From assembly GCA_949373095.1 (NCBI GenBank), contig CASIBY010000010.1, positions 62,001 to 126,000 of the forward strand: DNA of 64,000 nt, written 5' to 3'. The notes under the pieces were generated by a model. The model saw only the letters and a program-made list of their open reading frames with translations. It ran no database searches and was not told where the DNA came from. Positions within the stretch are counted from its first letter, which is position 1, and every line of letters begins with the position of its first letter. Source of the DNA: Candidatus Poseidoniaceae archaeon. GTDB taxonomy: Archaea > Thermoplasmatota > Poseidoniia > Poseidoniales > Poseidoniaceae. The position numbers and the translations under genes are program-made. Positions 6,399 to 25,535 of the stretch are shown here, piece after piece.

Positions 6399-6464
6399 CA
6401 TTTAGCGAAGCATATCTTTGCAATGAAGGGGTGAATTGATGAAGCATCGTGTCTTGGAGGGATT

Positions 6465-8247
6465 ATGGACATCCCAAAGCGGTTGCTTGGTCAACTGAAC
6501 GGTGACGAAGGGCCAACTCGGCAAAAAGCGGCTCGACTGGTTCTTGACCTCGCTGAAACCGCTAAAGCCGATGGATTTGTTGAAGCAGTACACGCCCACG
6601 TTTCAGGCGTTTCAGTGATCACTGGAGGGCACGGCCTTCGTCAATTTCTGGCTGACCTTTCAGCGAGCAGCGACGGCAAGGTCTCGATTCCAACTACGCT
6701 CAATTCAGCAGGCTGCGACCATGAAAAGATGGACGAAATGGACATAGCATGGCCAAATTTCCTCGAACAGCAGTTTGAAATCATTCAAGCGTACGAAGAA
6801 CTTGGAATTCAAGCCACCCTTTCCTGCACGCCATACGACCGCGGAATCGATGACGGCTCGGGCATTGCTTCTTGGGCGGAATCCAATGCCGTGTGCTTTT
6901 CAAACACATGGACGTCGCTCTTGACCAACCGTGAATCCGGTCTTTCTGCCCTTGGCTACTGCGTTGACCGGCTACGCTCCCCGCTGGGGCCTGCATTTGC
7001 CCGAACACCGAATGCCGAACATGCTGGTTCATGTTGAGGCGAACCCTGTCGGATTTGTCCGACTGGTCCGTGCTTGGCGATTGGATCGGAAAGCAAGTGC
7101 GACCGGAGTGGGACATGCCCTTTGGACCAATGCCTCTTGATCACGCGGCTGACCCTCCTTCATCAGTTTCGCCTCCAAGAAAGCCTTGACTGCTGCTGCA
7201 GCAAATTACGGCTGTGCCCTTCTTTGGGCCGATGGCCACTCTGCTGAACCTCCATTGACTCGGACAGAAGACGGGTGGGCTCCACCTGAGGCAGGATGGC
7301 AGGGGGAGGTTGACCTTCACAGAAGACGACCTCGCAAAGAGGTACGAAGAATTGGCTCCGACCGGCCAGGTGGATCTGGTCGTGGTTGGCTGCCCGCAAG
7401 CCAGCCTTGAGAAATCCGAACCACGGCTTCCGCGGTGCGCTCACACATGGAAATGGGTAAACGCATCCCTGACCACCGACTATGGGTGTTTACATCTGGA
7501 GAAAATTATGAACTCGCACGAGCAGACGGCTCGTTGGATTTACTCGAAGATGCTGGAGCCCTTATCCTCAAGGATACGTGTCCCGAAGTAACACCTTACA
7601 ATCGGAGCAAATACAACCACCTTCTTACAAATTCACTGAAGGCTGAACATTACTTGACAAGCGGGCTAAATCGCTTACCTACCAGTGTTATGCCCATCCA
7701 AGGATGTGTTTTACACGCCTTTGACCCAACGCTAAGTGCAGGGGAACGCCCAACGCTTCAAGCCAAAGCCCAGCCTCAACACGCCAGTAACAAAACCCAT
7801 CAAACCGGTGAAGCTCGTCTTTTTGGGGAAGGTTTGAATTCTCAGGATGATTTTGTAGTCACTGGACCTGCAATGGTAAGTGATGTACCCATAACCTACC
7901 TCGGTTATGTCAATCGAGATACGGGTGTAATTGAGGAAACTGGCCACCCGTTGGACGGCCAAGCGATTGAAGACACGGTTTTGATTTATCCAAAGGGTTC
8001 AGGGTCAACAGTCGCCCCGTATGTGTTGATGGGTCTTCTTTACACTGATAAGGGACCTAAAGGAATTGTCAATCGGGATGTATGTGCATTGACACTCCCA
8101 GCATGTTCCTTGTTGAACCTGCCTTACGGTCATGGATTTGATGAGGACCCATGCTTGGCCATCAACAATGGCGACTTAGTAGAACTACGTAGAAGCGGCT
8201 CAACCGTGACTCTAACCGTTCTTGAGCGAACAAAGGTGGACTCATGA
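6465..8247 (+). CDS. Aconitase X, large and small (swivel) domains fused, multiply frameshifted
   Basis: The 5' part (6465 to about 6950) matches the aconitase X catalytic domain: IPTTLNSAGCDHEKMDEM, SCTPYDRGIDDGSGIASWAE and SNAVCFSNTWTSLLTNRESG with Cys and Asn/Arg landmarks. The 3' frame (about 7410-8247) holds the end of that domain (VFTSGENYELARADGSLD, LKDTCPEV) and then the swivel domain (GHPLDGQAIEDTVLIYPKGS, GSTVAPYVLM). The junction between large and small domains lies in one uninterrupted frame, so the fusion is real. Between about 6950 and 7415 the reading frame changes four or five times, with continuous AcnX sequence visible. In archaea AcnX is phosphomevalonate dehydratase of the modified mevalonate pathway; bacterial relatives act on hydroxyproline. 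The former is the likelier role here. The stop overlaps the next start (ATGA). Confidence 0.78.
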
Positions 8248-9233
8248 CCAAACGCATCCTTGTGACCGGTGCTGCTGGTTTCATTGGGTCTTCATTGTGC
8301 GAGCGATTGGTTGGTGACGGGCATCGTGTTGTGGGCGTTGACAACTTGTTTCGTGGTCGTCTAGAACATCTTAGCGCTCTTGAGCAGGTTGAAGAGTTTC
8401 ATTTCATTGAAGGGGACACTCGTGAAAAATCTGTCTTGGATGCATGCGGGGCCATCTATGGTGGTTTTGACCTTGTTCATCATCTTGCAGCAATCAACGG
8501 AACTCGTTGGTTTCATGAGGCAGCAAGAGACGTCATCGATGTCAACATAAATACAACACTTGCAACGCTTGCTGCCGCTGAACGTTGGGATGCTAGGTAT
8601 GTCTTCGCATCTTCACCAGAAGCCTTTGGAGAGGAGGAACTTATGCCTCTAAAAGAGAGTTCAGCAAGTTCTTTTCCTTCCGCTCATCAACATCAGCGTC
8701 ATTCCTACGGCGGGAGCAAATATCTTGGGGAAGTTGCTTTGCAACATGCCGTGGCTTCGGGTCTTGATGCTCGTATCGTTCGTCCTTTCAACGCCTATGG
8801 TCCAAGGTTGCTTGGAGACGCTTATGGCCAAGTGATCGGAATGATGTTTCAAGCTGTAGCATCCAAGCAATCCATTCAGGTTCATGGTGACGGTTCTCAG
8901 ACCCGATGTTTTACTCACATTGATGACGTTGTTGACGGCTTCGTACTGGCGGGGACATTGGATGATGACCTTGTCGAAAACAAACCTCTGGCGGGTTGTT
9001 CATTCAACATCGGAAGTTCAGAGGAAGTCAGCATTTTAGAACTGGCCGATTTCATCAAGACTGCCGTTAATGACCTGGATTTGAGTATCATCAATACTGA
9101 AGGCTATCACGGTGATTCAAAGCGACGTGTTCCCGATTGCACATCTGCGGAACATTTGCTCGGTTGGCAATGTGCGACTTCATTAGAAGCAGGATTGAAA
9201 CGAGTTTGGCTAGAACTAAATGTTCAGCCATAA
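8244..9233 (+). CDS. NAD-dependent sugar-nucleotide epimerase/dehydratase (extended SDR)
   Basis: The N-terminus has the Rossmann glycine motif VTGAAGFIGSSL, followed by VVGVDNLFRGR, which positions the NAD ribose-binding Asp. The catalytic YxxxK is HSYGGSKYLGE (about residues 155-159), and VRPFNAYGPRLLGDAYGQ follows as in UDP-glucose 4-epimerases and UDP-glucuronate decarboxylases. Length 329 aa is normal. The substrate cannot be assigned from sequence alone. A role in glycan or glycoprotein precursor synthesis is likely, and the nearby hexapeptide acyltransferase fits this. Translation is probably coupled to the upstream AcnX gene through an ATGA overlap. Confidence 0.9.
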   Translation: MTKRILVTGAAGFIGSSLCERLVGDGHRVVGVDNLFRGRLEHLSALEQVEEFHFIEGDTREKSVLDACGAIYGGFDLVHHLAAINGTRWFHEAARDVIDVNINTTLATLAAAERWDARYVFASSPEAFGEEELMPLKESSASSFPSAHQHQRHSYGGSKYLGEVALQHAVASGLDARIVRPFNAYGPRLLGDAYGQVIGMMFQAVASKQSIQVHGDGSQTRCFTHIDDVVDGFVLAGTLDDDLVENKPLAGCSFNIGSSEEVSILELADFIKTAVNDLDLSIINTEGYHGDSKRRVPDCTSAEHLLGWQCATSLEAGLKRVWLELNVQP

Positions 9234-10027
9234 TGCTTGGTGACTCGCTTTTTCCATCCGCTTGGTGCTGGTGTCATATCGTCCCTTCCATGCTGGCAGA
9301 GTACTGCTAAACCACCAGCGGGGATGGTTGTTGAAGAAAACCAAACCGCTTTGACTCGCATGACTGCGATTCTTGCAACAGCCCCAGGGAGTTCATGTTC
9401 CTCGACATATTCAGCCTCGATGGCCGCAATACCTTCAGATAACAAAAGGGGTTGCGAATCTACGGTTTGCAGACCGTCAATGAGCATTCCTTCATCCTCG
9501 CCTTTTGGGAGTGGAGTGGCAGTTTCGTCAACCAGTTCCACACCTCGTTGTGTGGCCGGCATTAGGTTGAGTAGAATTCGGCCGGTAGAGCGCATGTTTG
9601 TCAGTGTGTCACGATGACGTCCGTCTTTGTGTACTGAAAAGGATGCTGTGAGATAAGGCGGTGCGGTTGAAACAGCCATCACAGATGAAAGAGGTGCAAA
9701 ATTACGCTTCCCTTCAGAGTCTAAGGTTCCAGCAACTACAACGGGGCGGGGTGAAAGGACATTGTTCAACCAAGTGCTCCGTTCTACGTGGGTCATTTCA
9801 TCAACATCAAGACGATTGAGGGGTTGAGCGTGGTTAGTGTTTTCCTCAAACCATCGGTCCAGCGTGCCGTCTGCAATTTCCTCAATAGCGTGCTGATTGA
9901 ATTCGACATATGCTTCCCATCTCGAGATTGCCTCGACCTCTCCACGTTCTCTCTTTCGAGCGATTGAGGCCTTAGCATAGCTGTTGCAACGTTCTAAAAA
10001 TGCTGTGACAATCGTTTGTTCATCCAT
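9224..10027 (-). CDS. Flavin reductase-like (FMN-binding split barrel) protein
   Basis: The region from about residue 90 (RPVVVAGTLDSEGKRNFAPL, then SSVMAVSTAPPYLTASFS and GRILLNLMPATQRGVELVDE) matches the flavin reductase-like/FMN-binding split barrel family. These proteins reduce flavins with NAD(P)H or bind FMN in oxidoreductases. The first 90 residues are a helical, charged extension that I cannot assign. It lies one base downstream of the acyltransferase gene on the same strand, and its last codons overlap the convergent epimerase gene by 10 bases. The physiological partner is unknown. Confidence 0.8.
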   Translation of the reverse strand: MDEQTIVTAFLERCNSYAKASIARKRERGEVEAISRWEAYVEFNQHAIEEIADGTLDRWFEENTNHAQPLNRLDVDEMTHVERSTWLNNVLSPRPVVVAGTLDSEGKRNFAPLSSVMAVSTAPPYLTASFSVHKDGRHRDTLTNMRSTGRILLNLMPATQRGVELVDETATPLPKGEDEGMLIDGLQTVDSQPLLLSEGIAAIEAEYVEEHELPGAVARIAVMRVKAVWFSSTTIPAGGLAVLCQHGRDDMTPAPSGWKKRVTKHYG

Positions 10028-10507
10028 CTAATTCGCCTCTTGTTTGGTATCGTATTCTGCCCGAGTCATCAGAAAAGAAGCTGGGTTTCCCACCCAGACT
10101 TCACCTGCTGGAAGGTCTTTGGTGAGGACCGATCCAGCACCGAGAACGCTTCCTTTGCCAACATTACATCCAGCAATGACCGTGACATTTCCTCCAAGAA
10201 CTGCACCTTGTGCAATGTTGATTGGTGCCCATTTGTTTAAGTCTCCAGAAGGTGGAAACCGGTCGTTGAGGAGGGTGGCATTTGGGCCAATGAATACATC
10301 ATCTTGTAATACGGAGCGGTCTGCAATGTAGGCAGAACCTTGAATTTTACAATTTTGACCGAGGCTCACATGCTGTCCGACATGGGCCAATGCGCCAATT
10401 GAGGTGTTCATCCCCACCGTTGTCCCCTTGCCGATGTGACATGGCCACCAAGCTACGGCTCCGCCTCCAAGGGCGATGCGTTCTCCGGTGAGGGGGTGTT
10501 GTGTCAC
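10028..10507 (-). CDS. Left-handed beta-helix (hexapeptide) acyltransferase
   Basis: 159 aa with repeated hexapeptides (IGKGTTVGMNTSIG, LGQNCKIQGSAYI, IAQGAVLGGNVTVIAGCNVG, VGKGSVLGAGSVLTKDLPAG) and the usual ending EVWVGNPASFL. Enzymes of this fold are trimers that transfer acetyl or other acyl groups, often to amino sugars. It is close to dTDP-/UDP-amino sugar N-acetyltransferases such as WlbB/WbpD in organisation. With the nearby sugar-nucleotide epimerase this suggests surface glycan synthesis, but the substrate is unknown. Confidence 0.85.
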   Translation of the reverse strand: MTQHPLTGERIALGGGAVAWWPCHIGKGTTVGMNTSIGALAHVGQHVSLGQNCKIQGSAYIADRSVLQDDVFIGPNATLLNDRFPPSGDLNKWAPINIAQGAVLGGNVTVIAGCNVGKGSVLGAGSVLTKDLPAGEVWVGNPASFLMTRAEYDTKQEAN

Positions 10508-10516
10508 TGAATCACC

Positions 10517-11002
10517 TCAATCGTTGAGGGATAACTCACGCATGAGCATGTCAACGTGCCCTTTGGCTTTTACATTGTATCTGCACCATGCTAAGGCTCC
10601 ATCTGTGTTAATGACAAATGTTGACCGAGCGCAACCCATGTATTCCTTTCCGTAATTTTTCTTGAGGCGCCATGTGCCAAATGCATGGTGAAGGGATAGG
10701 TCTTCGTCCACGAGAAGAGGGAAATTGAGTTCTTGTTTCTCGATGAATCTACCGTGAGATGCTGATGAATCCTTTGAAACCCCAAGGACAACGTATCCCT
10801 CTGTTACAAAACGAGCCATGTTATCACGGAAATCACAAGCCTGCGTGGTGCATCCTGGAGTGGAATCTTTTGGGTAAAAATAGAGAATAACTTGTTTTCC
10901 CTGTGCGGAGTAGTCGCTCAACTGGTGCATGGTGCCGTCTTGATCTATGACGCTAAAGTCTGGGGATTGGTCTCCAGGGGACAGGGATACGGTGTCGCTC
11001 AT
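10517..11002 (-). CDS. bcp: Thioredoxin-dependent peroxiredoxin, BCP/PrxQ type
   Basis: Reduces hydrogen peroxide and organic hydroperoxides. The peroxidatic Cys is in DSTPGCTTQACDFRDN, with a second Cys five residues later, the PrxQ/BCP arrangement that forms an intramolecular disulfide recycled by thioredoxin. The remaining family blocks (VILYFYPKD, GVSKDSSASHGRF, FPLLVDEDLSLHHAFG) are present. Length 161 aa is normal. It is probably first in a leftward operon with the acyltransferase and the flavin reductase-like gene, with gaps of 9 and 0 bases. Confidence 0.95.
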   Translation of the reverse strand: MSDTVSLSPGDQSPDFSVIDQDGTMHQLSDYSAQGKQVILYFYPKDSTPGCTTQACDFRDNMARFVTEGYVVLGVSKDSSASHGRFIEKQELNFPLLVDEDLSLHHAFGTWRLKKNYGKEYMGCARSTFVINTDGALAWCRYNVKAKGHVDMLMRELSLND

Positions 11003-11104
11003 GATGAAAGGGAGATGGCCATCCTCCTAAACCCATTGCATCTCGTTTTGTCCTTTGGATTAGGCGAGGTGAGGCTTAGTGGTCACTTTTACCAGATATG
11101 CAGA

Positions 11105-11136
11105 GTGAATAAAAAGTCAGCCACTGTGAATAAAAA
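11105..11136. promoter_or_regulatory. Two 11-bp direct repeats 21 bp apart, upstream of the archaellum operon
   Basis: GTGAATAAAAA occurs at 11105-11115 and again at 11126-11136, with centres 21 bp apart, about two helical turns. The AT-rich second copy (AATAAAAAA) lies about 50-60 bases before the first ATG of the operon at 11187 and could serve as the TATA element. Read leftward, the first copy (TTTTTATTC) could do the same for the divergent peroxiredoxin gene. Either duplicated promoter elements or a regulator site would explain it; the sequence does not decide. Confidence 0.4.
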
Positions 11137-11186
11137 AGCGGTTTAGGACCGATTCTTTCAATAACCGGCGGGCCGCAGGAATAGCC

Positions 11187-11621
11187 ATGGTCGGCTCACG
11201 TATGTCTCGTAAGTCGCGCCGTTATTTCAAGAAAATTCAGCGTGCGTCAACCAAGTTCATGCTGCAGGAAGTGGCCAGTGCTATACAAACCGAGCTGGAT
11301 AAACGTCATCTTTCCTACGATGAGGCGCTCATGCTTGGTAATCTCATTCAAAACAGGGCTGACCAAGTCTCTGGAGACGGTATTGTCTACGCCATATCTG
11401 ACCGAGATGCCTACAGGCGAACACTGGAACTGTATCTCAGAGACGCACTTCTTACCCGAACAGAGCAATTGCTTTTGTGGGAAGAAAGACGCAGATTGGG
11501 GATCAGTGAAGATGAGCACCAGCACCTTTTGAATCAACTTTTAGCCCAATGGAAGCGCCAAGGCAAGAATGTAACCATTGACCGATTTAACAAACCAAGC
11601 GGGGGTACTGGCAATGTCTAA
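11187..11621 (+). CDS. Unrecognised small basic helical protein, first gene of archaellum operon
   Basis: 144 aa, Arg/Lys/Gln-rich, predicted mostly alpha-helical with no signal peptide or membrane segment, so probably cytoplasmic. It begins with a basic stretch (SRMSRKSRRYFKKIQRASTK) that could bind nucleic acid or lipid head groups. I do not recognise the family. Its last eight bases overlap the start of the next gene (ATGTCTAA), which implies translational coupling. It may be an operon regulator or an assembly factor, but this rests on position only. Confidence 0.7.
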   Translation: MVGSRMSRKSRRYFKKIQRASTKFMLQEVASAIQTELDKRHLSYDEALMLGNLIQNRADQVSGDGIVYAISDRDAYRRTLELYLRDALLTRTEQLLLWEERRRLGISEDEHQHLLNQLLAQWKRQGKNVTIDRFNKPSGGTGNV

Positions 11622-14600
11622 TCGTCTTTCTCCACTTTTCTTAGTCGGGCTGCTTCTATTCACGAGCATTGCTCCGCTTACTATGGCGGAAGACGGTGCG
11701 CGCACGTCTCCAGATTTCGTCATAACCTCATTTTCTTTGGATGATGCCGGTTCTATTATAGACGGCGGCTCTGTTGTCGCTGAGGCAGCAACACACATCG
11801 TTCGAATCCAAGTTCAAAACATCGGCCTGATTGCCGGGCAGGCATCGCTCGTACTTTACCACCAAGGGACATCTACTTCCGGTGAAACAGTTGTGGACAG
11901 CACCGACCTCGGCGTCATCAACAGTGGCTCAAGCAGCAACGTCATTGTGTTTGCATGGGCTGCGACACTTGGCCCCGATCAAATCCTTAAGGCAAGCGTC
12001 ACCTCTTCTACAGATATTAACACCGCAAATAACGATGAACAATTGCTTATTGACGTGACGACAGCACAGGCAGCATCTGTTCCAAGCATCATCGATATAC
12101 CTGAGCCTGCTGTTGGTCAAACCAGCGTGGTTTGGTCAAAATCAATCCATGATTTCAACATCAATGTCCGAAATGATGGTGTAAAGAATTTCTCAGCATC
12201 CTATAATCTTGTATTCACAGACGCCAACGATCCTGCGATTACCTTCACCGAGACCTCCACTACCATCCCAATCATTCGGCCAGGTTCCTTGTACAATGGC
12301 GGAGCCACTCCCTCAATTGTTTCAATGAATTTTGATGCGACCGCACTCACCGGTGAATGGGCAGTCATTGGTACAATGACGGCAACAGGAGTCGGTTGGA
12401 GCCAACCCGTCCAATTCATTGACTTTACAGTTGTATTTTCAAACTACAATGCTGAAATCACTACTGCCCAAGACCGAAGCGTTGAGCCCGGTCAAGGGAC
12501 AACTCTCACTTATCTTGTCAAGAACACCGGCCTTCTAAGCGACGACTTCTCAATCGGTTTGACTTCAGTAAGTGGATGGGTGGATGCAACATCAACTCCG
12601 GCCAGCACCGCTACGATCTCCCCGGGAGTTACAACGTCCGTGCTCGTACAAGTTGACGTTCCAGGTACAGCACTTCGTACGGATTCGGAACTTGTCACCC
12701 TTACGCTGACCTCATCGGGAAGTAGTTTCGTCTATACCGTGCAAACTACCGTCCTAGCGGGAGAATCATATGATGTCACAGTAACTCTGCCTGTTGCAAC
12801 CGAGATGCTTGTCCCCGGTGTGAAATCACCAATTCTCGTTGATGTGACAAACGATGGTAACTCTCCAAGTTCGTTTTCGTTAACGGCAGGTTTAACGACA
12901 AATGCAGTAGGTTGGGACTTGGAATTCGCCTATCCAATCACGGGTGTACTCGCTGCGGGAGAAACCGTTAGTGTATCCCTCGGAGTGACGCCACCGACTA
13001 TCAAGAATCCACTTGTTACTTCAGAGCACAATCGTGCTGGAGATTCCATGGGTGTTTACGTGCAAGCTCAATCAACGTTAGGTGGACTCCCCGGCATGGA
13101 CTCAATTCCAGTCGAAATACTACCGGTCATCATTGTTGATCCTGGTCTCCCATCTGAACCCATCGACATGACAGTTGAACAAGTCCTTGCCGCACGTGCA
13201 GGCACTGGGTTAGAAGAGATTCTAGATCTTGAGGTAGAGGTACGTCACAACCTTGTCAGTGATTTGACCGAAGAGGTGGATGCTACCCTTTCTCTTGGGA
13301 CTTCAGTGTTTACCTCGGATTCATCTGGTGGCTTTGATGAAGCCTCACGATGGGCAATCGGCCTAACGCCTACTTCGTTCCCTACCATGTCACTTGGCGA
13401 TACTGAGTTATCTAAACTAACCATTCAAGGGCCAGCCGATGACTATCCGGTGTCTGGTCAACTCAAGGTTCCCATTACCGCCACTCCTACTTTGGGAGCC
13501 GTCCATCAGGGTTCAAACGTTATTCCCTCCGCAACTACGCAAATTCTCACCCTCAATGTCCCTCCTGTGCTTGGCGCTGAAGGGTATTCTGGAGGTCCGT
13601 TGGACGCTGTTGTTGGAGAAATGACTCAGTTCAATCTCAGCCTTGCTAATTCAGGGAACAACATGACCTCATATCGTTTGGTGATGGAAAATTCATTACC
13701 CGAAAATTGGGTTGCTTCTTTTTCAAACACGACGGCACTCGTATCAACGACACTTCTTCAAGTGCCTGCAAATGTAGCAGATCACCCCACAGTGGGTGAC
13801 CTTCATATCAGCGATTATATCGTTGTTGTAACGACTGACCCTCTTGCTCCTGCCCAAAGTATTGAGAACCTAAGGATCCGGGTAGAAGAAGTCGGAACTC
13901 AGACAATTATTACCCATTATGATTTGCCGATTCTGGTTGGCGAAAAGGTCAATGCAGCTCTTAGCCCGCCGTCTCAAGAGGTCAACCTCACTGCTGGCGA
14001 GTCGCTCTCGACACGAATTACAGTGAACAATGTTGGAAACACTCCTGCGGACTTCACGGTTTGGATTGATGATGTTGACGCTGGAGAAATCACCTACACC
14101 ATGGAAACACCGGCCACCCTTTCAATCGGAGCTGGCTATGCTGAAACCATCAAAATCCGACTGACTCCGTCTGACGATGCACGTGCGGATGAGGACTACA
14201 AAGCCATAGTCTGGGTCTCAAATCCTGAATCTGGCCTCTTGGTGTCTGCTGAAGTTATTGGAAATATGACTGAAAGCCACGGCATGGTCATTAGCACTGT
14301 AGAAAGCATAGGTGTAATCCCTGGTACTGTGGAAACAGTTGATTTCAGCATCACCAATAACGGTAACCTGGAAGAAGATGTAATCGTGGAAACAAAGGTC
14401 AACGGAGATTGGGTCGTCACCGACGCAAACTTCTCTTTGAATCTTGATATTGATGAACTTTATTCGGGCACAGTCGATATCTCAGTACCCTCTGTTGGAG
14501 GCGATGACAACTTACAGAATGGTTCGCTTTACCCAGTAACAATTCGTGTTTTGAAACCTGTCACCTACGAAGAACTAGGCACTCATACCTTCAATTTGGT

Positions 14601-16536
14601 CGTCGCTCCGCTGTTTATGGTGGAAGCAAATGACTGGCCTACTGAGATGTATTATCACGCAACATGGACACGTACTTGGGATGTTGAGTTGACAAATACC
14701 GGAAACAGTGATGTCAAAGTCAATGTGACATATGTGCTCCTTAAAGGAGGCCTTGCAACGCCCACAACGGACTGGGTCATTGTGAGCCCAGCACCTGAAA
14801 CGCTAAATCTCGAGCAAGGACGTACGACCACTTTCACCTTTTCAGTTCAATCTACAAAGGCCGACCCAGACCTCACTCTCGCAGCAAATCTGGCCGTGAA
14901 GCTTACTCCAACGGATGCTGCCGTAGAAGGAAGTGCAGAGTTCTTTACTAACCTCAAGATGGATCGATTCTTTGAGGTATCTGATACGAAGGTCGACCCG
15001 ACCGGTGGAACGAGCATCACCTATCCAATTCAATATTCACACATTCCAAACGGCCCCGGTACGCCGGTGGCTTACGAAGTTGAGTTGTGTAAATCAGAGC
15101 GTTTACTCGACTTTGCATCCTTGGGACAGAATGCGACCATGCACCCTTGGTCGTTTGCTATTGTCGTCGGAGAGACTGAATATCCTCTAGATTTGACACA
15201 AGAATGTGGCTTGGGTTCGCTCGGAGTAGACTCCCGAATCTCTTTGCCAACACGAAGTGCCTATGTCACCACTGAACCCATTTATCTCAAGGTCACCCCG
15301 CCCAAGGTGGACATTCTACCTGGTGACGGATGGGATTTAAGCATGCGATTGTACCACCCTGATGAGAATGTTGGATACACCGTCTCTGAGAAAGCAACAT
15401 TTACTTACGAACTCGCAGTATATCGCAGACCCCGCAATCCTCGCACTACGGGCCTAACTGCCGATGTACTCTACGAGGGCGAAGAGGCCACAGTACTCAG
15501 TCTACCGTCAAGAACAAGGGCACGGCAATCGCCCTCGGCGTATCGGTACAGTTGGACTGTGGCTCCGGATATTGACGATCCTCACGGCCCCAGAAAGGTA
15601 TGGAGACGGCAGTATGATTCCAGTACTTACCGCTGGTCAATCCAGTCGACCTCGAATGGACCATCATGCCCGCTACCATCGAATGGTGGGAAGTGCGCTC
15701 GCAGGCTGATTGCAATATCTCCCTCGACCTCCATCTACGCCGGAGACAACAACCTTGAATCCAACGACCAAGAATTGGTCGTAAGCAAGACGATCCAATC
15801 CGCCTCGCCCAGGCCTATCCATTGCCTTTCGTAGCATGTATCGTTGCAGCTCTCGTATCCTTTGCCTTTACCCGCCTTGCTACGCAGTCTGAAAAGTGGC
15901 AGTTGGGCGGAGTATATGCCGGCGTCCTGAGTTTCGGATTTGCATTCCATCTTGGATTCGGCTACGAAGTCCAAGGGGTCCCCGTATGGGGTCCAGCAAT
16001 TTTGATTCTCTGTGCATTGTGGATATGGCGAATGACTTGGAAGAGCAGCGAAGAATTCCGCCTCATCCATGAAGACTATCAACGAGCCCGAAAGGGTATT
16101 TCAACGATTTATTCAGACCACTTTGAAGCACTTTCAGACGGTCGCCGTCAATTGACAATTATTCTCTCAATTCCAGTACTTGGAATGTTGGCTATCGTCC
16201 TCGGCCTCCCCCCACAACTCTCGGCTGAACACTCAGAACCTCGTTGTCATGGGGTCATACTTCCTCGTCATCATGATCGGAGTATGGTACTTCCTCAAGC
16301 GTTCAGACAAGATGTACGGCAACCTCTACGGTCGATTAACCGACGCAGAAATCAAGAGTATTCGCATTGAACGGGATCTCGGCGACCCGGCACGTTTGCT
16401 CAACGATCTGGCAGACGATGGACTGGACCTGACTTCGTTGCTCGGACCTGCTTCTAGTGACAACTGGCAACGAAGCCATGCGCTGGAGACGCTGAGGCCC
16501 CTGAAGCCGATGGATGATGGCTCCCTGGACCCTTGA
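11614..16536 (+). CDS. Giant secreted Ig-repeat protein with C-terminal multi-helix membrane domain (3' part frameshifted)
   Basis: ATG 11614 (overlapping the previous stop) is followed by a clear signal peptide, LSPLFLVGLLLFTSIAPLTMAEDG. About 1,270 extracytoplasmic residues consist of repeated CARDB/NEW3-like Ig modules, for example VQNIGLIAGQASLVLYHQG, VKNTGLLSDDFSIGL, VTNDGNSPSSFSL, VNNVGNTPADFTVWI and ITNNGNLEEDVIVET. From about 15480 the frame changes several times (STVKNKGTAIALGVSVQLDC, then FQYLPLVNPVDLEWTIMPAT, then IYAGDNNLESNDQELVVSKT). It continues into about five hydrophobic helices (FVACIVAALVSFAFTRLA to YFLVIMIGVWYFLK) and a cytoplasmic tail ending at 16536; one more shift lies near 16230. 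The whole is about 1,640 aa. Its place directly before the archaellins suggests a wall-spanning scaffold or stator for the filament, by inference only. It could also be two genes, if the membrane part is separate. Confidence 0.7.
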
Positions 16537-16553
16537 GACGGAGGTGGAAACCG

Positions 16554-17501
16554 ATGTCTGAGGATGCTGAGATGGATTTCGAAGAGTCCTCACCAGAGGA
16601 TCTCGCCTCACGAGAAGCGGGCATTCTAGAAGCGTCACAAACGTTAGAACGAATTGCTCGAAAGGCAGCTCGCCGAAACAATGCCTCGTTGACAGAATCT
16701 GAACTTGACCTTGGAGAAGCGAAGGTATACCTCGGCATGCACAACCTTTCGCGAGCCAAGAAAAACATCAAGCATGCTGAATCCATTCTCGAATCTCTAG
16801 AAGAGGATGTCTTGCATCTTCGCCGAAGCATTGCGATGCTTCACAGGCTTTTGGTACACAAGCGCATCAGCCTTGACGAGGCGGAACACATCCTCTTCAA
16901 ACTACGAGAATCCACAGCGGCTGCCGAAGTAGGTGACATCAGGGCGGCAACGGAGGAAGTAGAATACCTCCTCGAAGACCTCATTGGAGGCAATTCCTCG
17001 ACGCTTAACCCCTTCCTGTTCCGTCACTTCTGGATGGGTGTGGATACACGATGGCCAGCAGGCGGTGACGCGGGTGTCCTTCTTGTTCGGATCATCAACG
17101 ACGGTCCGATTCCAATGCCTATGCTACGCCTCAAGCCACCGGTGCCAGAGGGTTGGACTGCATTCCCTCCGAACGTTGACCTACCAATTATTGCACCCGG
17201 CGGGAACATCCCGTTGCGATTTGAGATCAAACCGGATTACCGGATGACCTCCGAAGACGTCCCCCTCACCCGGAAACTCTCGGTAGCCACCTCTTATGAG
17301 ATGCGCTCCGGAGAGATTACCATCACCATGCGTGCACAAAATCGTTCAATGGAACCCCTCTCAGAGATTCTTCTTTCCCCATGGCTTCCAGCAGGTTTTA
17401 CTGCTGAAGAACTTCCATTTATTCGTAATCTCGCTCCAGACGAAGTGGCCATCATACGCATGCCACTTCGAATTAACCTCGGTCAAGGAGGCTCTTCTTG
17501 A
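16554..17501 (+). CDS. Coiled-coil plus Ig-like domain protein preceding the archaellins
   Basis: The start is ATG 16554, with a strong GGAGGTG at 16541-16547; an earlier in-frame TTG at 16533 overlaps the previous stop but has no comparable site. Residues about 10-150 are highly charged helices with coiled-coil character (SREAGILEASQTLERIARKA, ISLDEAEHILFKLREST). The C-terminal half is beta-rich with tandem Ig-like features (VLLVRIINDGPIPMPML, GGNIPLRFEIKPDYRM, ILLSPWLPAGFTAEELPF). There is no signal peptide or membrane helix, so it is probably cytoplasmic, bound to the inner face of the archaellum motor or its neighbour. No known family was recognised. It may replace cytosolic FlaC/D/E-type components, but that is speculation. 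Confidence 0.75.
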   Translation: MSEDAEMDFEESSPEDLASREAGILEASQTLERIARKAARRNNASLTESELDLGEAKVYLGMHNLSRAKKNIKHAESILESLEEDVLHLRRSIAMLHRLLVHKRISLDEAEHILFKLRESTAAAEVGDIRAATEEVEYLLEDLIGGNSSTLNPFLFRHFWMGVDTRWPAGGDAGVLLVRIINDGPIPMPMLRLKPPVPEGWTAFPPNVDLPIIAPGGNIPLRFEIKPDYRMTSEDVPLTRKLSVATSYEMRSGEITITMRAQNRSMEPLSEILLSPWLPAGFTAEELPFIRNLAPDEVAIIRMPLRINLGQGGSS

Positions 17502-17543
17502 CCCATCACATTCCACTCGCAGAGACGAGTGAACAAAACAAAA

Positions 17544-18137
17544 ATGGTGAAAAATATGAAAAACGAAAAAACGAACGAAAACCGCGATGAACTTGCGGCT
17601 ATTGGTATTGGTGCAATGATTGTCTTCATTGCTCTGATTCTTGTAGCTGCAGTTGCTGCTGCTGTCATTATTCAGACGGCTGAAAAATTGCAGCAAAACG
17701 CACAGAGCACTGGTGAGGACACAACAGACATGATGGCAGGTAAAATCTTCCTCAATTCCGTTGTCCTTACCAACACTGGAAACAGTCTGTACGTGACCTT
17801 TGAACTAGCACCTGGATCTGATACCTTGCTTGCTACTGCGATTGAATACAACCTTATTTGCGAAGGAACTGGTGCAGCAAACGGATTGTCTCAATTCGGA
17901 AACCTTGGTACAGTGGCAGGGATCACTTCAACTGTGGCATCGCAACTTGGGACAGCAGGTGCAGCAGCAAACATCGCCCCAGGAGCCACCTACACGGTAT
18001 CGTTAACTCCAACAGGTAACTGTGCACCAGGTGCACTTCAAACTGACACGCTTGTAATTCAAGCAGGCGCAGGAGGATTTACTTATGAGGTCTTAAAGTA
18101 CGGAGCAACAACCAACGCAGGAGATGTGGTCGTATGA
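17544..18137 (+). CDS. flaB1: Archaellin 1 (major archaellum filament subunit)
   Basis: The N-terminus has a class III signal peptide. A charged leader ending RDELAA is followed by IGIGAMIVFIALILVAAVAA and IIQTAEKLQQNAQ, the hydrophobic helix that forms the filament core. FlaK-type prepilin peptidase should cut after the Ala-Ala. The outer domain (about 150 aa) is beta-rich and has two cysteines (LICEGTG and GNCAPG). The start is uncertain: GTG 17529, ATG 17544 and ATG 17556 are all in frame. ATG 17544 gives a leader about as long as in archaellin 2. The stop overlaps the archaellin 2 start (ATGA). Confidence 0.92.
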   Translation: MVKNMKNEKTNENRDELAAIGIGAMIVFIALILVAAVAAAVIIQTAEKLQQNAQSTGEDTTDMMAGKIFLNSVVLTNTGNSLYVTFELAPGSDTLLATAIEYNLICEGTGAANGLSQFGNLGTVAGITSTVASQLGTAGAAANIAPGATYTVSLTPTGNCAPGALQTDTLVIQAGAGGFTYEVLKYGATTNAGDVVV

Positions 18138-18715
18138 AGTCCGATATTCAATCCCAATCCAACATGGAAGATGACAAGTATGCTGCAATCGGTATCGGTG
18201 CAATGATTGTGTTTATCGCACTCATTCTCGTTGCCGCAGTCGCAGCAGCAGTTATCATTCAAACAGCCGAGAAACTTCAGCAAAATGCTCAGGCTACTGG
18301 TGAAGACACAGCTGATTCAATGAATGGAAAACTTATGATCAGCCAAATCTACGCCGGAACAACTGCAGCCACTGATTACGAAGTTTATGCACGTTTGTCA
18401 CCTGGTAGTGATGGTATTGCGGCAACTACAATCTTCTTCCAACTTATTTGCCCTGCAAGCACAACTCCTATTGAGGGTGGTGGCGTAGGTGTACCTTTGG
18501 TCGTTGATGAAATGGACCAAAGCAATGCGGCCATTGCCACCATTCTACCTGGGATGCCAGTTATGATCACTATACCTGGTGGTGGCTGTGACCCTACTCA
18601 AGCAAACAACCTTGGCCAAGATGTGCAACTTTACTTGCACGTTGGTGGCGGTGGTACGACATTTGAGACAATGCAGATTCCCGCTACTGTGAATCAAGGA
18701 ACTCCACTGATCTGA
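18134..18715 (+). CDS. flaB2: Archaellin 2
   Basis: 193 aa; the leader ends DDKYAA and is followed by the same 35-residue core helix as archaellin 1, without one amino-acid change, and then ATGEDTAD. The outer domain differs but again has two cysteines (QLICPAS and GGGCDP). Two archaellins in tandem are common in euryarchaea, where one is often the bulk filament protein and the other a hook or minor subunit. Which is which cannot be told here. Start and stop of the pair overlap by four bases, implying coupled translation. Confidence 0.92.
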   Translation: MKSDIQSQSNMEDDKYAAIGIGAMIVFIALILVAAVAAAVIIQTAEKLQQNAQATGEDTADSMNGKLMISQIYAGTTAATDYEVYARLSPGSDGIAATTIFFQLICPASTTPIEGGGVGVPLVVDEMDQSNAAIATILPGMPVMITIPGGGCDPTQANNLGQDVQLYLHVGGGGTTFETMQIPATVNQGTPLI

Positions 18716-18718
18716 TGC

Positions 18719-18742
18719 TTGGTTCGAGTTTACTCGAACCAA
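18719..18742 (+). other. Perfect 10-bp hairpin between archaellin 2 and the next gene
   Basis: TTGGTTCGAG and CTCGAACCAA are exact inverted repeats separated by the loop TTTA, starting three bases after the archaellin 2 stop. There is no U-run behind it, so it is not an ordinary intrinsic terminator. A likely role is to shield the 3' end of the archaellin message or to lower read-through, giving more filament subunits than motor parts. The next gene's GGAGG lies four bases beyond the stem. Confidence 0.75.
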
Positions 18743-18757
18743 CATGGAGGAATTAAA

Positions 18758-19612
18758 ATGGCATGGCCATTTAGTGGAAACTCTGGAGGAAATCGGAACC
18801 CAGAGCAGAATCTAAGCGAAGAACGCCTGAAGATTTTGGCCAATGTGGCCATTGAACAGGTACCATTCCCAGAACAGGGAATACTGAGCGAAGAGGACGC
18901 ATGGACGATTTCCCCCGGACCAACAAGAGCTCGGATTAACAGTCAGCAAAGCGTACCTAACGTGGCAGCGACACTCGCACCTCAAAGTGCGCCAGTGAAC
19001 CTACCACCGGCTACCGTTGATACATCTGGCCTTGAGCGACTCATCAGCAGTCGTCTCGATATGGTTGAAGATGTGTTACGGATGGTTGAGGGGCGATTAG
19101 AGGACGGCGCTTTACCCCAAGCGACTAGCGAAACTGAATCTTCGTCAGAACACGAGGATGTTGAAGGCGACGATGAAGTTTCATCAGGCGACCGGATCAT
19201 CACCGCCAGTGGGGAAGTTGTTGAAATCAGCGGGCAATCTCGCATGATGGAAAACGATGAAGCGCCGTTGGTTGAATTGTATGAGGCCCAAGCTCTGGCA
19301 GCAAACCCGTTTTTGAACGCTCCCGCATCGACCTCTACAGGCTCTGCGAACCAAATTGGAGCACCGACTGTTTCAGCATTATTGCTTGACCATATGTCTG
19401 GCATGGCAGCTGTGAGTTTTACTCAAAAAGCAATCGAATCAGGAATGTTGACCGGAGCCGAAGGCATCAGTGTCATGGCTATTGTCCAACTTGCAGAGCC
19501 TGGAGACCCAGAAACAGCATTGGAAGACCACTTGCCTCACCGTGAGTTGTTGACCTTCTCTGCCTTGGTCTCATCATGGCGGCAAATGGAATCGTTACGT
19601 GGAGGAGAATGA
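18758..19612 (+). CDS. Unrecognised acidic cytoplasmic protein in archaellum operon (possible FlaC/D/E equivalent)
   Basis: ATG 18758 is preceded by GGAGG (18746-18750); a TTG at 18719 is in frame but lies within the hairpin. The 284 aa have no signal or membrane segment. Residues about 1-100 are Pro/Ser-rich and probably disordered, then comes a helical segment (LERLISSRLDMVEDVLRMVE), an acidic stretch (SSSEHEDVEGDDEVSSGD), and a folded helical C-terminus (about 200-284). In other euryarchaea FlaC, FlaD and FlaE occupy this position and link the motor to chemotaxis. I see no convincing sequence match to them. Confidence 0.75.
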   Translation: MAWPFSGNSGGNRNPEQNLSEERLKILANVAIEQVPFPEQGILSEEDAWTISPGPTRARINSQQSVPNVAATLAPQSAPVNLPPATVDTSGLERLISSRLDMVEDVLRMVEGRLEDGALPQATSETESSSEHEDVEGDDEVSSGDRIITASGEVVEISGQSRMMENDEAPLVELYEAQALAANPFLNAPASTSTGSANQIGAPTVSALLLDHMSGMAAVSFTQKAIESGMLTGAEGISVMAIVQLAEPGDPETALEDHLPHRELLTFSALVSSWRQMESLRGGE

Positions 19613-20269
19613 ATGGGCGCTTCGGTTGGAATAGGAGGTTTGATTGTAGGCATTTCGATGCTTGTCGTCTTTTCGATGGCATATCAATCAATTTCATCTC
19701 AAATTGATTCTGGTCTTGACCGACTGGATGATGCGGATGAACCCATTCCAACCTTTACAATTGACGATGCGATATTGTTTGATGGTGCAGTGGTAGACTA
19801 TACCATTGCGATCGCCGGAAGTGGATATACAGATGGCACACTAGCCTCTTCTACTGGAGGCGGTGGTTTTGCTGGTGAATATACAGTGGATGGAACTGGA
19901 GCAATAATCGACGTGGTAATCACCAGCCACGGCGATTATTCTTCTGCACCAACCCTTACCATCACTTGCACAACTGCTTGTGCCGGGAACTCAGGTACTG
20001 GGAGCGTCACTCCAACATTAGGCAACGCAATGTATGCTAACTTCACAAATGCGGGTTCAGCAACGATTGATTTTGATGACATGTGGTTGTTCACGAATGG
20101 ATTGAATCCCATACCGTTTGATACGGCCTACACCTCGGCGATCTCATCTACAAACTGGTTCACAGGAGAAACTCTGTTTCTTCAATGGATTGACCCTATC
20201 CTTGACCCTGACCTTGACCGCATTTCGATGACGGTTGGTCCAACGACCATAGGTCATAATTTGGCATGA
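19613..20269 (+). CDS. flaF: FlaF-type archaellum stator/anchor protein
   Basis: 218 aa: an N-terminal membrane helix (SVGIGGLIVGISMLVVFSMA) and a beta-sandwich exterior, including YANFTNAGSATIDFDDMWLF, the strand pattern seen in FlaF/FlaG proteins. FlaF sits in the pseudoperiplasm and interacts with the S-layer and FlaG. At 218 aa it is longer than usual (about 120-170), with an inserted Gly/Thr/Ser-rich section (GTLASSTGGGGF) and a Cys pair (TCTTACAG). The start ATG directly follows the previous TGA, with GGAGGA nearby. Confidence 0.82.
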   Translation: MGASVGIGGLIVGISMLVVFSMAYQSISSQIDSGLDRLDDADEPIPTFTIDDAILFDGAVVDYTIAIAGSGYTDGTLASSTGGGGFAGEYTVDGTGAIIDVVITSHGDYSSAPTLTITCTTACAGNSGTGSVTPTLGNAMYANFTNAGSATIDFDDMWLFTNGLNPIPFDTAYTSAISSTNWFTGETLFLQWIDPILDPDLDRISMTVGPTTIGHNLA

Positions 20270-20278
20270 GTTGATATT

Positions 20279-20773
20279 ATGGCGGACGGCGGAGCATCAT
20301 CTTTCATCATGTTGGTTACAGCATTGCTGATCTCTGGCAGCGTGAGTACCATACTCATCAGTGAATGGAATAAGGTTGCACGGGTTGCGGAGAGTGATGA
20401 ACGTAAATCATATGGTTCTCTTGGCGTGTCGGTAGATTTCGCAGGAGACCCCATGATGGTTGGATTTGAAGATCCCGCAGTGGGTGACGATGAATTGACT
20501 GTCTATGTCATTAATTCGGGAATTCATGAGATGAGCACCACTTTTGAGCTCCTCATCAATGGCGTTGCTCCGGCAACAATGACAACATCAATTTCTCCAT
20601 CTGGAACAGATTGGTTGCCTGGTTATCTTCTTGAAATTACAGCCTCCGACAATACCCTTACCTATACAGATGGTGATGATGCATCATTATTCTTTGTAGG
20701 TATCTCAGAACCCATACAAGGATATCAGCATTCAGCAACAATGAACAAGGAGGTCAGATTGAATGAAATTTGA
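20279..20773 (+). CDS. flaG: FlaG-type archaellum stator protein
   Basis: 164 aa: an N-terminal ADGGASSFIMLVTALLISGS helix of the FlaG type, then a beta-sandwich (DELTVYVINSGIHEMSTTFE). FlaG forms a filament capped by FlaF that anchors the motor to the cell envelope. Gene order FlaF-FlaG-FlaH supports the call. The stop overlaps the FlaH start by 11 bases. Confidence 0.85.
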   Translation: MADGGASSFIMLVTALLISGSVSTILISEWNKVARVAESDERKSYGSLGVSVDFAGDPMMVGFEDPAVGDDELTVYVINSGIHEMSTTFELLINGVAPATMTTSISPSGTDWLPGYLLEITASDNTLTYTDGDDASLFFVGISEPIQGYQHSATMNKEVRLNEI

Positions 20774-21500
20774 TGAGAATCCATTTATGATTGCCCACAA
20801 GCCTGTTGAAGACGGCTTCCCCTTTGATGTTGAAACTGATTCACTCGGGGACTCGATGGGTCTCCGAATGCCGAATCGTTCGCTCTATGTTTTGCAAGGA
20901 AAGGTCGGAGCAGGTAAATCCCTGATATCTCAGCGCCTTGTTCATGGGATGATTCAGAACGGGGTCAAGGTTCTCGTCGTTACGACCGAACTCACGACTC
21001 GTGGCTGGATTGAACAAATGGAAAGTGTAGGCTACGGCATTACCGATGCAATTCGGGAAGGCCGCTTGATGGTCATCAGTCGGTTTGGGACCATCGCAGA
21101 ATCAAGAGCTGATGTAACCCTACAAGATGTGCTAGCAAGTCCAGCAGTCCCCTCAGCAGACGTCATACTCTTTGATTCTGGAAGTTCGCTTATGCCCGAC
21201 AATCTTAGATGATAATGGCCGTTTCCAATTAATGCAACAAATGCGCAAGGTCGCCTCTCGAAGGGCGCTCCTTCATGCTCTGCTTGGACCCGGACGAAAT
21301 GGACGGCAAACTGCTCCACACCTTGCGGGCATCGGCCGAGGTTGTTCTTAGACTTGGAAAACGCACTAATCGGTGGCGAAATCAAGCGAAATATCGTTGT
21401 CACACGGTTCCTACGCGCAGCAGGGCCCATCCAATCGAGTATTGGATGGCGTGTTGAGCCAGGAATGGGTTTTATCGTCGACATCACGGCGGTCAGTTGA
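20763..21500 (+). CDS. flaH: FlaH, archaellum RecA-like ATP-binding motor regulator (frameshifted)
   Basis: ATG 20763 has GGAGGT upstream. The Walker A motif LQGKVGAGKSLISQRLVHG lies at about residues 44-60, and DVILFDSGSS is the Walker B strand. The frame breaks near 21205, but the family sequence continues: RFQLMQQMRKVASR, then FMLCLDPDEMDGKLLHTLRA, then GGEIKRNIVVTRFLRAAGPI, and the ending GWRVEPGMGFIVDITAVS with TGA at 21498-21500. Three single-base shifts (about 21205, 21265 and 21345) restore one 245-aa protein. FlaH binds ATP without strong hydrolysis and docks on FlaI. Confidence 0.85.
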
Positions 21501-21508
21501 GGAGGTGG

Positions 21509-23235
21509 ATGAATTATGAGCAGACGAGCCCCGATTTGCTAAAGGAGATCTCAATGGTGTCATGGCTGCTTATCCTCACGTAGCCGACTGGGTACGTGAC
21601 TTTGAGCAACGCTACGGTACTCGACCTATCTACTATGGTCCATTGGACCGGGGTGCGATGAAAACCCGCCCTCTCAACTCTGATTTACGTGACAAAGGAA
21701 CCTATCTTCGTTCATATCTACGAACCTCCGGCAGATGACGATGGAGGTGGTACGATTCTTTGGTTTGGTTTGGAACCCCAATTGACGGAAGAAGAGGAGA
21801 ATATCCGTCGGGAACTTGTTGAAACACTCCTGCAAGAAGCTCCCTACGGCCCCGTCGTTTACCACCGATGCAGAATTTGAAAACATCTTGGGTCAAATGA
21901 TTGACAGATACACCATCCTTGATACAGAGGCCAACAACCTCGTCCGTCGGCAGGGCCGGCTTTGGGAAATGATCGGCATGGATGACAAGCGTCTGACCGT
22001 GAGTGAAAAGCAGCGGGAACGACTAACCTATGTCGTCATCCGCGACCTGATCCGAAACGGCCCGCTTGAACCTCTGCTCTCTGATGAGATGCTGGAAGAC
22101 ATACACTCGGTCGGATTGAAGCACATTCACATGGATCACAAGGTCTTCGGAATGGTCACTTCCAACATTCAGATTCCGTGAACGATCACTCCTCTCTCGC
22201 TATCTCCGTGCTATGTCGGAGCGTATTGGGCGCCCTGTGTCTGACAACAAACCAATTATTGACGGTGTTCTTCTTGATGGGTCACGTATCAACATCATTT
22301 TCTCCGACGACGTATCTATGCTTGGTCCGTCGTTCACCATCCGTAAATTCGCAGAAGAAACCATCTCGATTACTCAACTCATTCAGTGGGGTACGATGTC
22401 TTCTCAAGTCGCAGCCTACATCTGGATTTGCCTTGAATACGGTATGTCAGTTTTGGTTTCTGGAGAGACTGCATCTGGTAAAACCACAACGTTGAATGCT
22501 ATTCTTCCCTTTATTGACCACAACGTCAAAATTTACACTGCAGAAGATACTCCTGAAGTTAAAGTTCGGCACAAGATTTGGCAGCGTCTCGTCACCCGTG
22601 ATGCTAAAAATGAAGAATCTCGTGTTGAGATGTTCGACCTGCTCAAGGCGGCATTGCGAAGCCGTCCTCGATACATCATCATCGGTGAGATTCGTGGTGT
22701 AGAGGGTGCTACTGCTTTCCAAGCCATGCAGACCGGCCACCCGGTCATCGCTACCTTCCACGCATCCTCAATCGTCAAGATGATTCAGCGGTTTACCGGC
22801 GACCCGATCAACGTTCCCATTCGGTTCTTTGACAATCTTAACTTTGCGATCTTCCAAGAAGTGGTTGAGGCCCCAGGCGGCGGTATCGCCCGTCGTATCA
22901 CCGGAATTGACGAAGTCATTGGTTACAACAAACACAGTGACGGTGTGCTGACCCGTGGTATGTTCGAATGGGACCCTGTCAAAGATAAACACTATTTCCG
23001 TGGTATGTTCCAATCACATTTGCTTGAGAACAAGATCGCTGCAATGGCTGGTTTTGCGAACAAGCGAGATATCTACGATGAGATGCTTCGTAGGGCCGAT
23101 GCCATTCAGCGAATGGTTGACCGTGGCTTGACTCATTATGACGACGTGTTTGACCTCCTTGGGCTCTACTATTCCAACGGCTGGGACCATTTCAGCCGAG
23201 CTATTGACACATGGGTCGGCGTCAACCAGAAATGA
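21509..23235 (+). CDS. flaI: FlaI, archaellum assembly and rotation ATPase (frameshifted)
   Basis: GGAGG at 21501-21505 precedes ATG 21509 (MNYEQTSPDLLKEIS). The frame changes near 21552, 21690, 21850 and 22170. Protein sequence continues through GTRPIYYGPL, PIFVHIYEPPADDDGGGTIL, QMIDRYTILDTEANNLVRRQ and the long intact part from 22190 on. That part has Walker A VSGETASGKTTTLNAILPF, the Asp box TAEDTPEVK, Walker B YIIIGEIRGVEG and the His box TGHPVIATFHASS. This type II/IV secretion ATPase forms a hexamer that first assembles and then turns the archaellum. Restored length is about 575 aa. Confidence 0.9.
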
Positions 23236-23249
23236 GGAGATGATGAGAC

Positions 23250-25058: not shown

Positions 25059-25070
25059 TAAATCTGAGGA

Positions 25071-25535
25071 ATGTTCATACCCTTCGTTTTGGGTGGAATG
25101 GATATGCAACCACCCATACCCCCTGCAATGAATCCCGCTGCTTCACCATACCAACCACCTGCCAATATGGCGAAAGGTTCCATGTATTCTTTTCAAAAAT
25201 GGTTGATGATCGGTCTGATTGTTCTCGTTGTATCCGGCATGTTTGGTGAGTTCCCCTTGTCGTCTTCATCCCCGAATCCCACTGATTATGATTTGTTAGA
25301 GGAAAAAGGATTGGATGACTATTCCGATGCCGTTGACAGTTTTGAAGGACAAGTAGCCCTATTCTCCGCAATGAGTACAATTCTTCAAACCACGGCCCTT
25401 GCTCTTGTTGCCTATGCATTCATTCGTGAAGCTCACGAAGAAGAGGGAATGCATGTCGCTATGAGAATAACAATGGTTCTCGCAGCAGTGATTCTGGTCA
25501 CGAGCATCGTTGGTCGTAACATCTCCTTGTTCTGA
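25071..25535 (+). CDS. Small membrane protein at end of archaellum operon
   Basis: ATG 25071 or, less likely, ATG 25098; each has a purine-rich site upstream. The N-terminus is Pro-rich (MDMQPPIPPAMNPAASPYQP). It has one hydrophobic helix (WLMIGLIVLVVSGMFGEF), an acidic external loop, and two more helices near the C-terminus (TILQTTALALVAYAFI and MVLAAVILVTSIVGR). No family recognised. Spacing of 12 bases after FlaJ indicates co-transcription, so it is a candidate archaellum membrane accessory. Confidence 0.75.
   Translation: MFIPFVLGGMDMQPPIPPAMNPAASPYQPPANMAKGSMYSFQKWLMIGLIVLVVSGMFGEFPLSSSSPNPTDYDLLEEKGLDDYSDAVDSFEGQVALFSAMSTILQTTALALVAYAFIREAHEEEGMHVAMRITMVLAAVILVTSIVGRNISLF

Follow-up and report, generated by a model that had tools for sequence, protein, structure and literature searches.

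In the standard model of the archaellum, the stator proteins ArlF and ArlG grip the surface layer (S-layer). Here we describe an archaellum locus in 64,000 nucleotides of DNA from a Candidatus Poseidoniaceae archaeon (the window, part of contig C10 of a 1.87-Mb metagenome-assembled genome (MAG) that is 82% complete), in which three plus-strand open reading frames, ORF1, ORF2 and ORF3 (positions 11187-17501), lie directly 5′ of two archaellin genes and the genes for ArlF-like and ArlG-like proteins and for ArlH, ArlI and ArlJ, as an earlier note on this DNA had stated. The family of this MAG matches Poseidoniaceae (Marine Group IIa), judging by where archaella occur and by the literature. In several Thermoplasmatota lineages the ORF2-ORF3 pair goes with archaellum genes, and it is a concrete candidate for holding the motor in archaea without an S-layer. 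It also bears on whether the archaella of Marine Group II (MGII), which outnumbers all other archaea in surface-ocean plankton (PMC6461757), serve to swim, attach or sense.

The problem of how ArlF and ArlG are anchored where there is no S-layer was raised for Thermoplasmatales by Gaines et al. 2025 (PMC12448462), whose suggestion is an amorphous protein layer. The present locus resembles the arl/fla clusters of Euryarchaeota in that archaellins, ArlF-like and ArlG-like proteins, ArlH, ArlI and ArlJ are encoded in one run, but differs from them in being headed by ORF1-ORF2-ORF3, in having an ArlF-like protein that is recognisable by its N-terminal helix only, and in the chemotaxis proteins CheW and CheF, neither of which we found in the genome to which the window belongs. 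An MGII motility region with several unannotated syntenic orthologous proteins beside the flagellins and FlaHIJ was shown by Tully 2019 (PMC6336850, Fig. 4); these proteins are very probably the same genes, although in the text of that paper they are unnamed, their architecture is not analysed and they are not traced outside MGII. The term "marine group" is absent from the main text of the 2016 survey of archaeal type IV pili (PMC4858521), and we found no published description of ORF2 or ORF3, supplementary files lying outside the search.

Among described components, ArlX is thought to encase ArlH and ArlI, and ArlC/D/E to take its place in other archaea (PMC12448462). ORF3 is likewise a coiled-coil protein encoded with motor genes, but it carries immunoglobulin (Ig)-like domains, lacks the ArlX-type transmembrane helix and matches neither FlaC_arch nor Arch_fla_DE, so that it was not recognised as ArlX or ArlC/D/E; in family f28, a genuine Arch_fla_DE protein is encoded in addition to ORF3. 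The ORF2 ectodomain is built from the same domains as Ig-repeat envelope proteins (NPCBM_assoc/NEW3, CARDB), from which ORF2 differs in its five-helix domain, its conserved cytoplasmic loop, its fixed partner ORF3 and its link to the archaellum. In the archaellum locus of Litorilinea aerophila (PMC12488501), PilN and LysM-PilO genes adjoin, and there too extra envelope genes go with an unusual cell envelope, but these encode bacterial type IV pilus alignment proteins and are likened to ORF2 and ORF3 by gene position.

Architecture of ORF2 and ORF3

The head of the locus comprises the following features.

11187..11621, plus strand: ORF1, a cytoplasmic protein of 144 residues, full-length family found only in Poseidoniales
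11614..11621, plus strand: 8-base overlap ATGTCTAA of the ORF1 stop and ORF2 start, the same -8 overlap in several relatives
11614..16561, plus strand: ORF2, giant membrane protein, frame broken after ~15490 and intact in relatives
15495..16464, plus strand: ORF2 membrane domain of five helices and the Ig-like module nearest the membrane, pieces in different frames
16554..16561, plus strand: 8-base overlap ATGTCTGA of the ORF2 stop and ORF3 start, -8 overlap recurring in relatives
16554..17501, plus strand: ORF3, 315 residues, coiled-coil N-terminal half with NPF motif and two Ig-like domains

ORF2 is predicted, from hydropathy and conservation, to run from a signal peptide through an Ig-repeat ectodomain of ~1,350 residues to five C-terminal helices with a cytoplasmic loop and tail, the loop carrying the conserved sequence HEDYQRARxGxSTxYxDHF. 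The Ig-like domains score above Pfam cut-offs, and among 19 members we found NPCBM_assoc in 17, FixG_C in 18 and CARDB in 8 (E <= 0.01); NxGN-type motifs recur at a spacing of ~110-135 residues, which suggests ten or eleven Ig-like modules. Its length is similar in every Poseidoniales locus (about 1,570-1,690 residues in relatives) and spans 1,492-1,735 residues as called when families f11 and f28 are included, one f28 copy (L191) being split into two frames. A classical S-layer protein would have a single C-terminal anchor or sorting signal; ORF2 has a five-helix C-terminal domain and a cytoplasmic tail instead. The signal peptide, Ig-like domains and five membrane helices described in the earlier note thus hold for the family, but the frame in this assembly is not intact: the pieces of the membrane domain were located by profile match at contig coordinates G000:C10:77495-78232 and 78225-78464, and the stop at 16561 was placed by comparison with relatives.

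The coiled-coil/Ig-like architecture claimed for ORF3 was confirmed. In its alignment a P-F is invariant and two Ig-like domains are present; membrane helices are absent, one questionable start (L191) excepted, and ORF3 of the window has no signal peptide either. Profile searches of the PDB returned nothing but coiled-coil matches and a GH20 enzyme matched locally at its end. In families f8 and f18 (L199, L203), ORF3 has extra C-terminal cysteine motifs like those of zinc ribbons or DnaJ (CXXCXGXG), and neighboring coiled-coil proteins there have a similar cysteine-motif tail.

Overlapping junctions had been proposed to run from ORF1 into the archaellins. Those between ORF1 and ORF2 and between ORF2 and ORF3 are real, each of 8 bases, and the same overlap recurs in many relatives, most commonly at ORF2/ORF3. 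The stop of ORF3 at 17501 does not overlap flaB1, from which it is separated by at least 27 bases, and in relatives the gap before flaB is 12-101 bases in 11 of the 12 measured, the remaining one overlapping. Hence, the overlap coupling covers ORF1-ORF2-ORF3 without extending into the archaellins, and a single message from ORF1 to the archaellins stays putative.

Distribution of the pair in Thermoplasmatota

The order ORF2-ORF3-flaB was present in all 27 of the Poseidoniales loci with a full-length ORF2, which confirms that the arrangement is more than chance. When we searched 293 genomes of the phylum with Poseidoniales profiles, ORF2 and ORF3 were found in f1 and, within the second family, f2, in genera g5, g9, g4 and g21, and no ORF1, ORF2 or ORF3 was found in f2 genera without FlaJ. 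Nearly all FlaJ-bearing Poseidoniales genomes carry the genes; the part of the exceptions that was inspected includes MAGs whose fla contig ends early (e.g. G053). The earlier claim that these genes belong with the archaellum is thus borne out in Poseidoniales.

We also read the archaellum loci of other Thermoplasmatota directly for upstream genes. A second order of the phylum (f11 and f28, whose members include the MAGs CSMAG_272 and Zod_Metabat.400; a scan of the genome contigs with f11 FlaI gave four named loci) has ORF2-ORF3-flaB in the loci that extend far enough, and the f43 and f24 loci that were read have ordinary genes upstream. In f11 and f28, ORF2 is 1,492-1,517 residues long, with signal peptide, Ig and multi-helix parts, and the ORF3 homologue has 322-417 residues. 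Between the two orders, the ORF3 proteins can be aligned over the Ig part and, less tightly, over the coiled coil; in ORF2, the Ig part matches clearly (E 1.7e-40) but the membrane domain only weakly, so that the orthology of the membrane domain across orders rests on common topology and position. The statement that known archaellum loci have no such parts was therefore too strong, as homologues of ORF2 and ORF3 occupy the same place in another order. A restriction of the pair to MGII, which had rested on Poseidoniales-only profiles, was rejected when a combined ORF3 profile from both orders found further families; that the ORF2-ORF3 pair extends beyond MGII is new here.

Defined as a giant Ig and five-helix protein followed directly by a coiled-coil/double-Ig cytoplasmic protein, the module was found in f1, f2, f8, f11, f18, f26 and f28. 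Across the phylum, for which absence is only as good as the combined profile used, ORF3 (E < 1e-8) was detected in 67 of 293 genomes, and FlaJ is present in 60 of these (Fisher p 2.6e-17, without correction for phylogeny). As for the remaining seven, G026, G030 and G184 show other fla genes where the contig breaks off early, flaB is present in G141, the assemblies of G057 and G320 are in fragments, and the contaminated MAG G180 gave Ig-type matches alone. FlaJ was not found in G141, a 93% complete genome; its locus (L189) reads ORF2-ORF3-flaB, a 284-residue gene and then an opposite-strand gene of 2,064 residues. In f12, ORF3 precedes flaB at a contig edge, and f7 and f25 have the double-Ig protein only. 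Within Thermoplasmatota, the phylum searched, we saw neither homologues spread widely in genomes without archaella nor an absence of the genes beside flaB in most relatives, the two outcomes that the earlier note had set beforehand as speaking against its proposal.

On a FlaI tree, the module families outside Poseidoniales (f8, f18, f26, f11 and f28) form one clade (100/96), which f22 and f43 join at 94/88. A single origin of the module with later losses is possible.

A proposed envelope anchor and competing explanations

We tentatively propose, from gene content and predicted architecture, that ORF2 and ORF3 form a dedicated accessory module, an envelope anchor or stator scaffold, of one Thermoplasmatota archaellum lineage. 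The functions put forward in the earlier note, a wall-crossing scaffold, a stator or an adhesin delivery device, are likewise putative. Anchored by its five membrane helices, ORF2 would stand around the filament base as a stiff mast or collar of Ig repeats, and its conserved cytoplasmic loop and tail would dock ORF3, a contact to which the pairing and overlap of the two genes point. The coiled coil and Ig domains of ORF3 would in turn link ORF2 to the cytoplasmic ArlC/D/E-H-I ring, so that the two proteins keep the motor still while ArlF and ArlG push against them, the part ascribed to the S-layer in other archaea; in Poseidoniales, ORF1 would have been added later as a cytoplasmic component. 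The simplest role may be that of the motor's fixed point, in a phylum that has members without an S-layer; contact with the motor and an anchoring function are both putative. The stricter proposal, that the pair is an envelope-spanning anchor or stator that replaces the S-layer as this fixed point, we consider rather doubtful. The Thermoplasmatales studied in PMC12448462 probably fall in groups without the module, in which case it would not be a general answer to anchoring without an S-layer.

Several observations weigh against an anchoring module. Many archaellated Thermoplasmatota families, f24 and f27 among them, have no ORF3 detectable with our profile, and hence the archaellum does not need ORF3. 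In archaellated f8, f18 and f26, the adjacent pair lies away from the fla locus and is thus unlinked, although the adjacency of ORF2 and ORF3 is kept even there, which counts in favor of the module. Poseidoniales attach beside the other module families, f22 and f43 on the FlaI tree with support too weak to rely on (50/71). Structure models gave a pLDDT (predicted local distance difference test score) of 53 for ORF3 and 44 for the ORF2 C terminus, from alignments of three and two rows, and were not used.

The main rival, which we regard as unlikely, is that ORF2-ORF3, with or without ORF1, is a sensory input replacing bacterial-type chemotaxis: the ORF2 ectodomain would sense a ligand, a surface or load, and ORF3 and ORF1, both cytoplasmic as such a relay would be, would pass this to the motor. 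CheW occurs in 19 of the 293 genomes and, among genomes with FlaJ, in 1/60 with ORF3 (G162) versus 14/74 without it (p 0.0016), but these counts are not phylogeny-corrected, and at the family level the difference is not significant (1/10 versus 9/19; p 0.10). Two archaellum loci are present in G162 itself: L190 carries the module, and no che genes were seen there, and L140 has a che cluster (CheA, response regulator, CheF, CheW and a methyl-accepting chemotaxis protein) and no module. This separation counts for the sensory explanation, but L140 may be a contaminating contig in the MAG. A check of eleven further genomes, two with CheW among them, found no CheF, which is therefore a poor marker here. 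The sensory explanation is further weakened by the many families that have neither the module nor CheW and by domain searches of ORF1-3, in which we found no MCPsignal, HAMP or other signalling domain.

A second alternative, which we judge quite unlikely, makes ORF2 an adhesin produced with the filament for attachment to particles and ORF3 its cytoplasmic assembly or turnover factor. The long Ig-repeat ectodomain would suit such a protein, and Rinke et al. (PMC6461757), in whose data the flaJ ratio peaked in a large particle fraction, argue for an adhesion role of the MGII flagella genes. For an adhesin, however, neither five helices nor a conserved cytoplasmic loop and tail would be needed, and the similar length of ORF2 in all Poseidoniales loci and the presence of the module in Thermoplasmatota outside MGII also count against one. 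Least likely of those considered is a general Thermoplasmatota envelope pair without a motor role, encoded with archaellum genes by chance in some lineages, which would account for the unlinked pairs and for the Ig-repeat envelope and double-Ig proteins that occur without a partner (f7, f25). Against it, we saw no genome that has the complete pair but lacks archaellum genes, most of the exceptions to co-occurrence with FlaJ are fragmented MAGs, and the order before flaB is strict in Poseidoniales and f11/f28.

Downstream genes, frame breaks and ORF1

The remainder of the locus reads as follows.

17529..18137, plus strand: archaellin FlaB1, PF01917 over cut-off, start codon uncertain
18134..18715, plus strand: archaellin FlaB2, PF01917 over cut-off
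18719..19612, plus strand: protein without a family match at the place of ArlD/E, start codon uncertain
19613..20269, plus strand: ArlF-like stator protein, ArlF model matching the N-terminal 38 residues only, remainder diverged
20279..20773, plus strand: ArlG-like stator protein, ArlG model match below curated cut-off
20763..21500, plus strand: ArlH/FlaH, broken in this assembly, end approximate, intact in relative L063
21515..23235, plus strand: ArlI/FlaI motor ATPase, approximate start, frame broken in this assembly and intact in relative L063
23250..25058, plus strand: ArlJ/FlaJ platform protein, frame broken near start

ArlI, ArlJ and ArlH encoded together with two PF01917 archaellins identify this as an archaellum locus. 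In the intact relative (L063), FlaI scores above its cut-off (5.7e-202), and ArlJ (7.7e-117) and ArlH (5.9e-49) below theirs; the stator models, ArlG at 1.3e-12 over most of its length and ArlF at 4.5e-6 over residues 1-38 only, are both below curated cut-offs. A small membrane protein gene that follows FlaJ (25071-25535) was not detected in f2 and is found in several, not all, f1 genera. By sequence inspection, the locus is flanked upstream by an opposite-strand peroxiredoxin-like gene and downstream by an endonuclease III-like gene.

ORF2, FlaH, FlaI and the start of FlaJ are broken in this MAG by single-base indels, those of ORF2 being several between ~15490, to which its frame is open, and 16561. 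Because the same single-base insertions in FlaH and FlaI recur against all three close relatives compared, whose genes are intact, the breaks look like assembly errors, not decay; a pseudogene reading was rejected because of the intact ORF2, FlaH, FlaI and FlaJ of relatives and the otherwise high protein identity. Many single-base indels relative to close relatives extend over 5530-25400 of the window; these are probably assembly errors too and may also have lowered the completeness estimate of the MAG.

ORF1, confirmed at 144 residues and without a membrane helix, aligns with 60% mean column identity over 18 rows and has a basic N terminus and a C-terminal helical module. Among the 293 genomes, its full-length form occurs only in f1 and in the f2 genera g5 and g9; it was found neither outside Poseidoniales nor in the rest of f2, and scans of viral contigs with ORF1 and ORF3 gave no match. 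The three genes are thus not one unit as had been suggested; ORF1 as an essential part is rejected, and it is a dispensable Poseidoniales addition. It touches ORF2 in most Poseidoniales loci, was not found in L083, and lies ~3.2 kb away from ORF2 in genus g5 (L072, L099, L100). Its helical module recurs in unrelated cytoplasmic proteins of 340-370 residues (L027, L026, L030-L032), in tandem in L027 and with an N-terminal zinc ribbon in others of this set. Between ORF1 and ORF2 of genus g5 (L072:2867-6052) stands a coiled-coil protein of 1,061 residues with repeated LLWDNxNDLDLxxxxPxGE...GGxLDxxMN domains, a 395-residue relative of which is encoded divergently upstream in L083 (L083:15192-16379).

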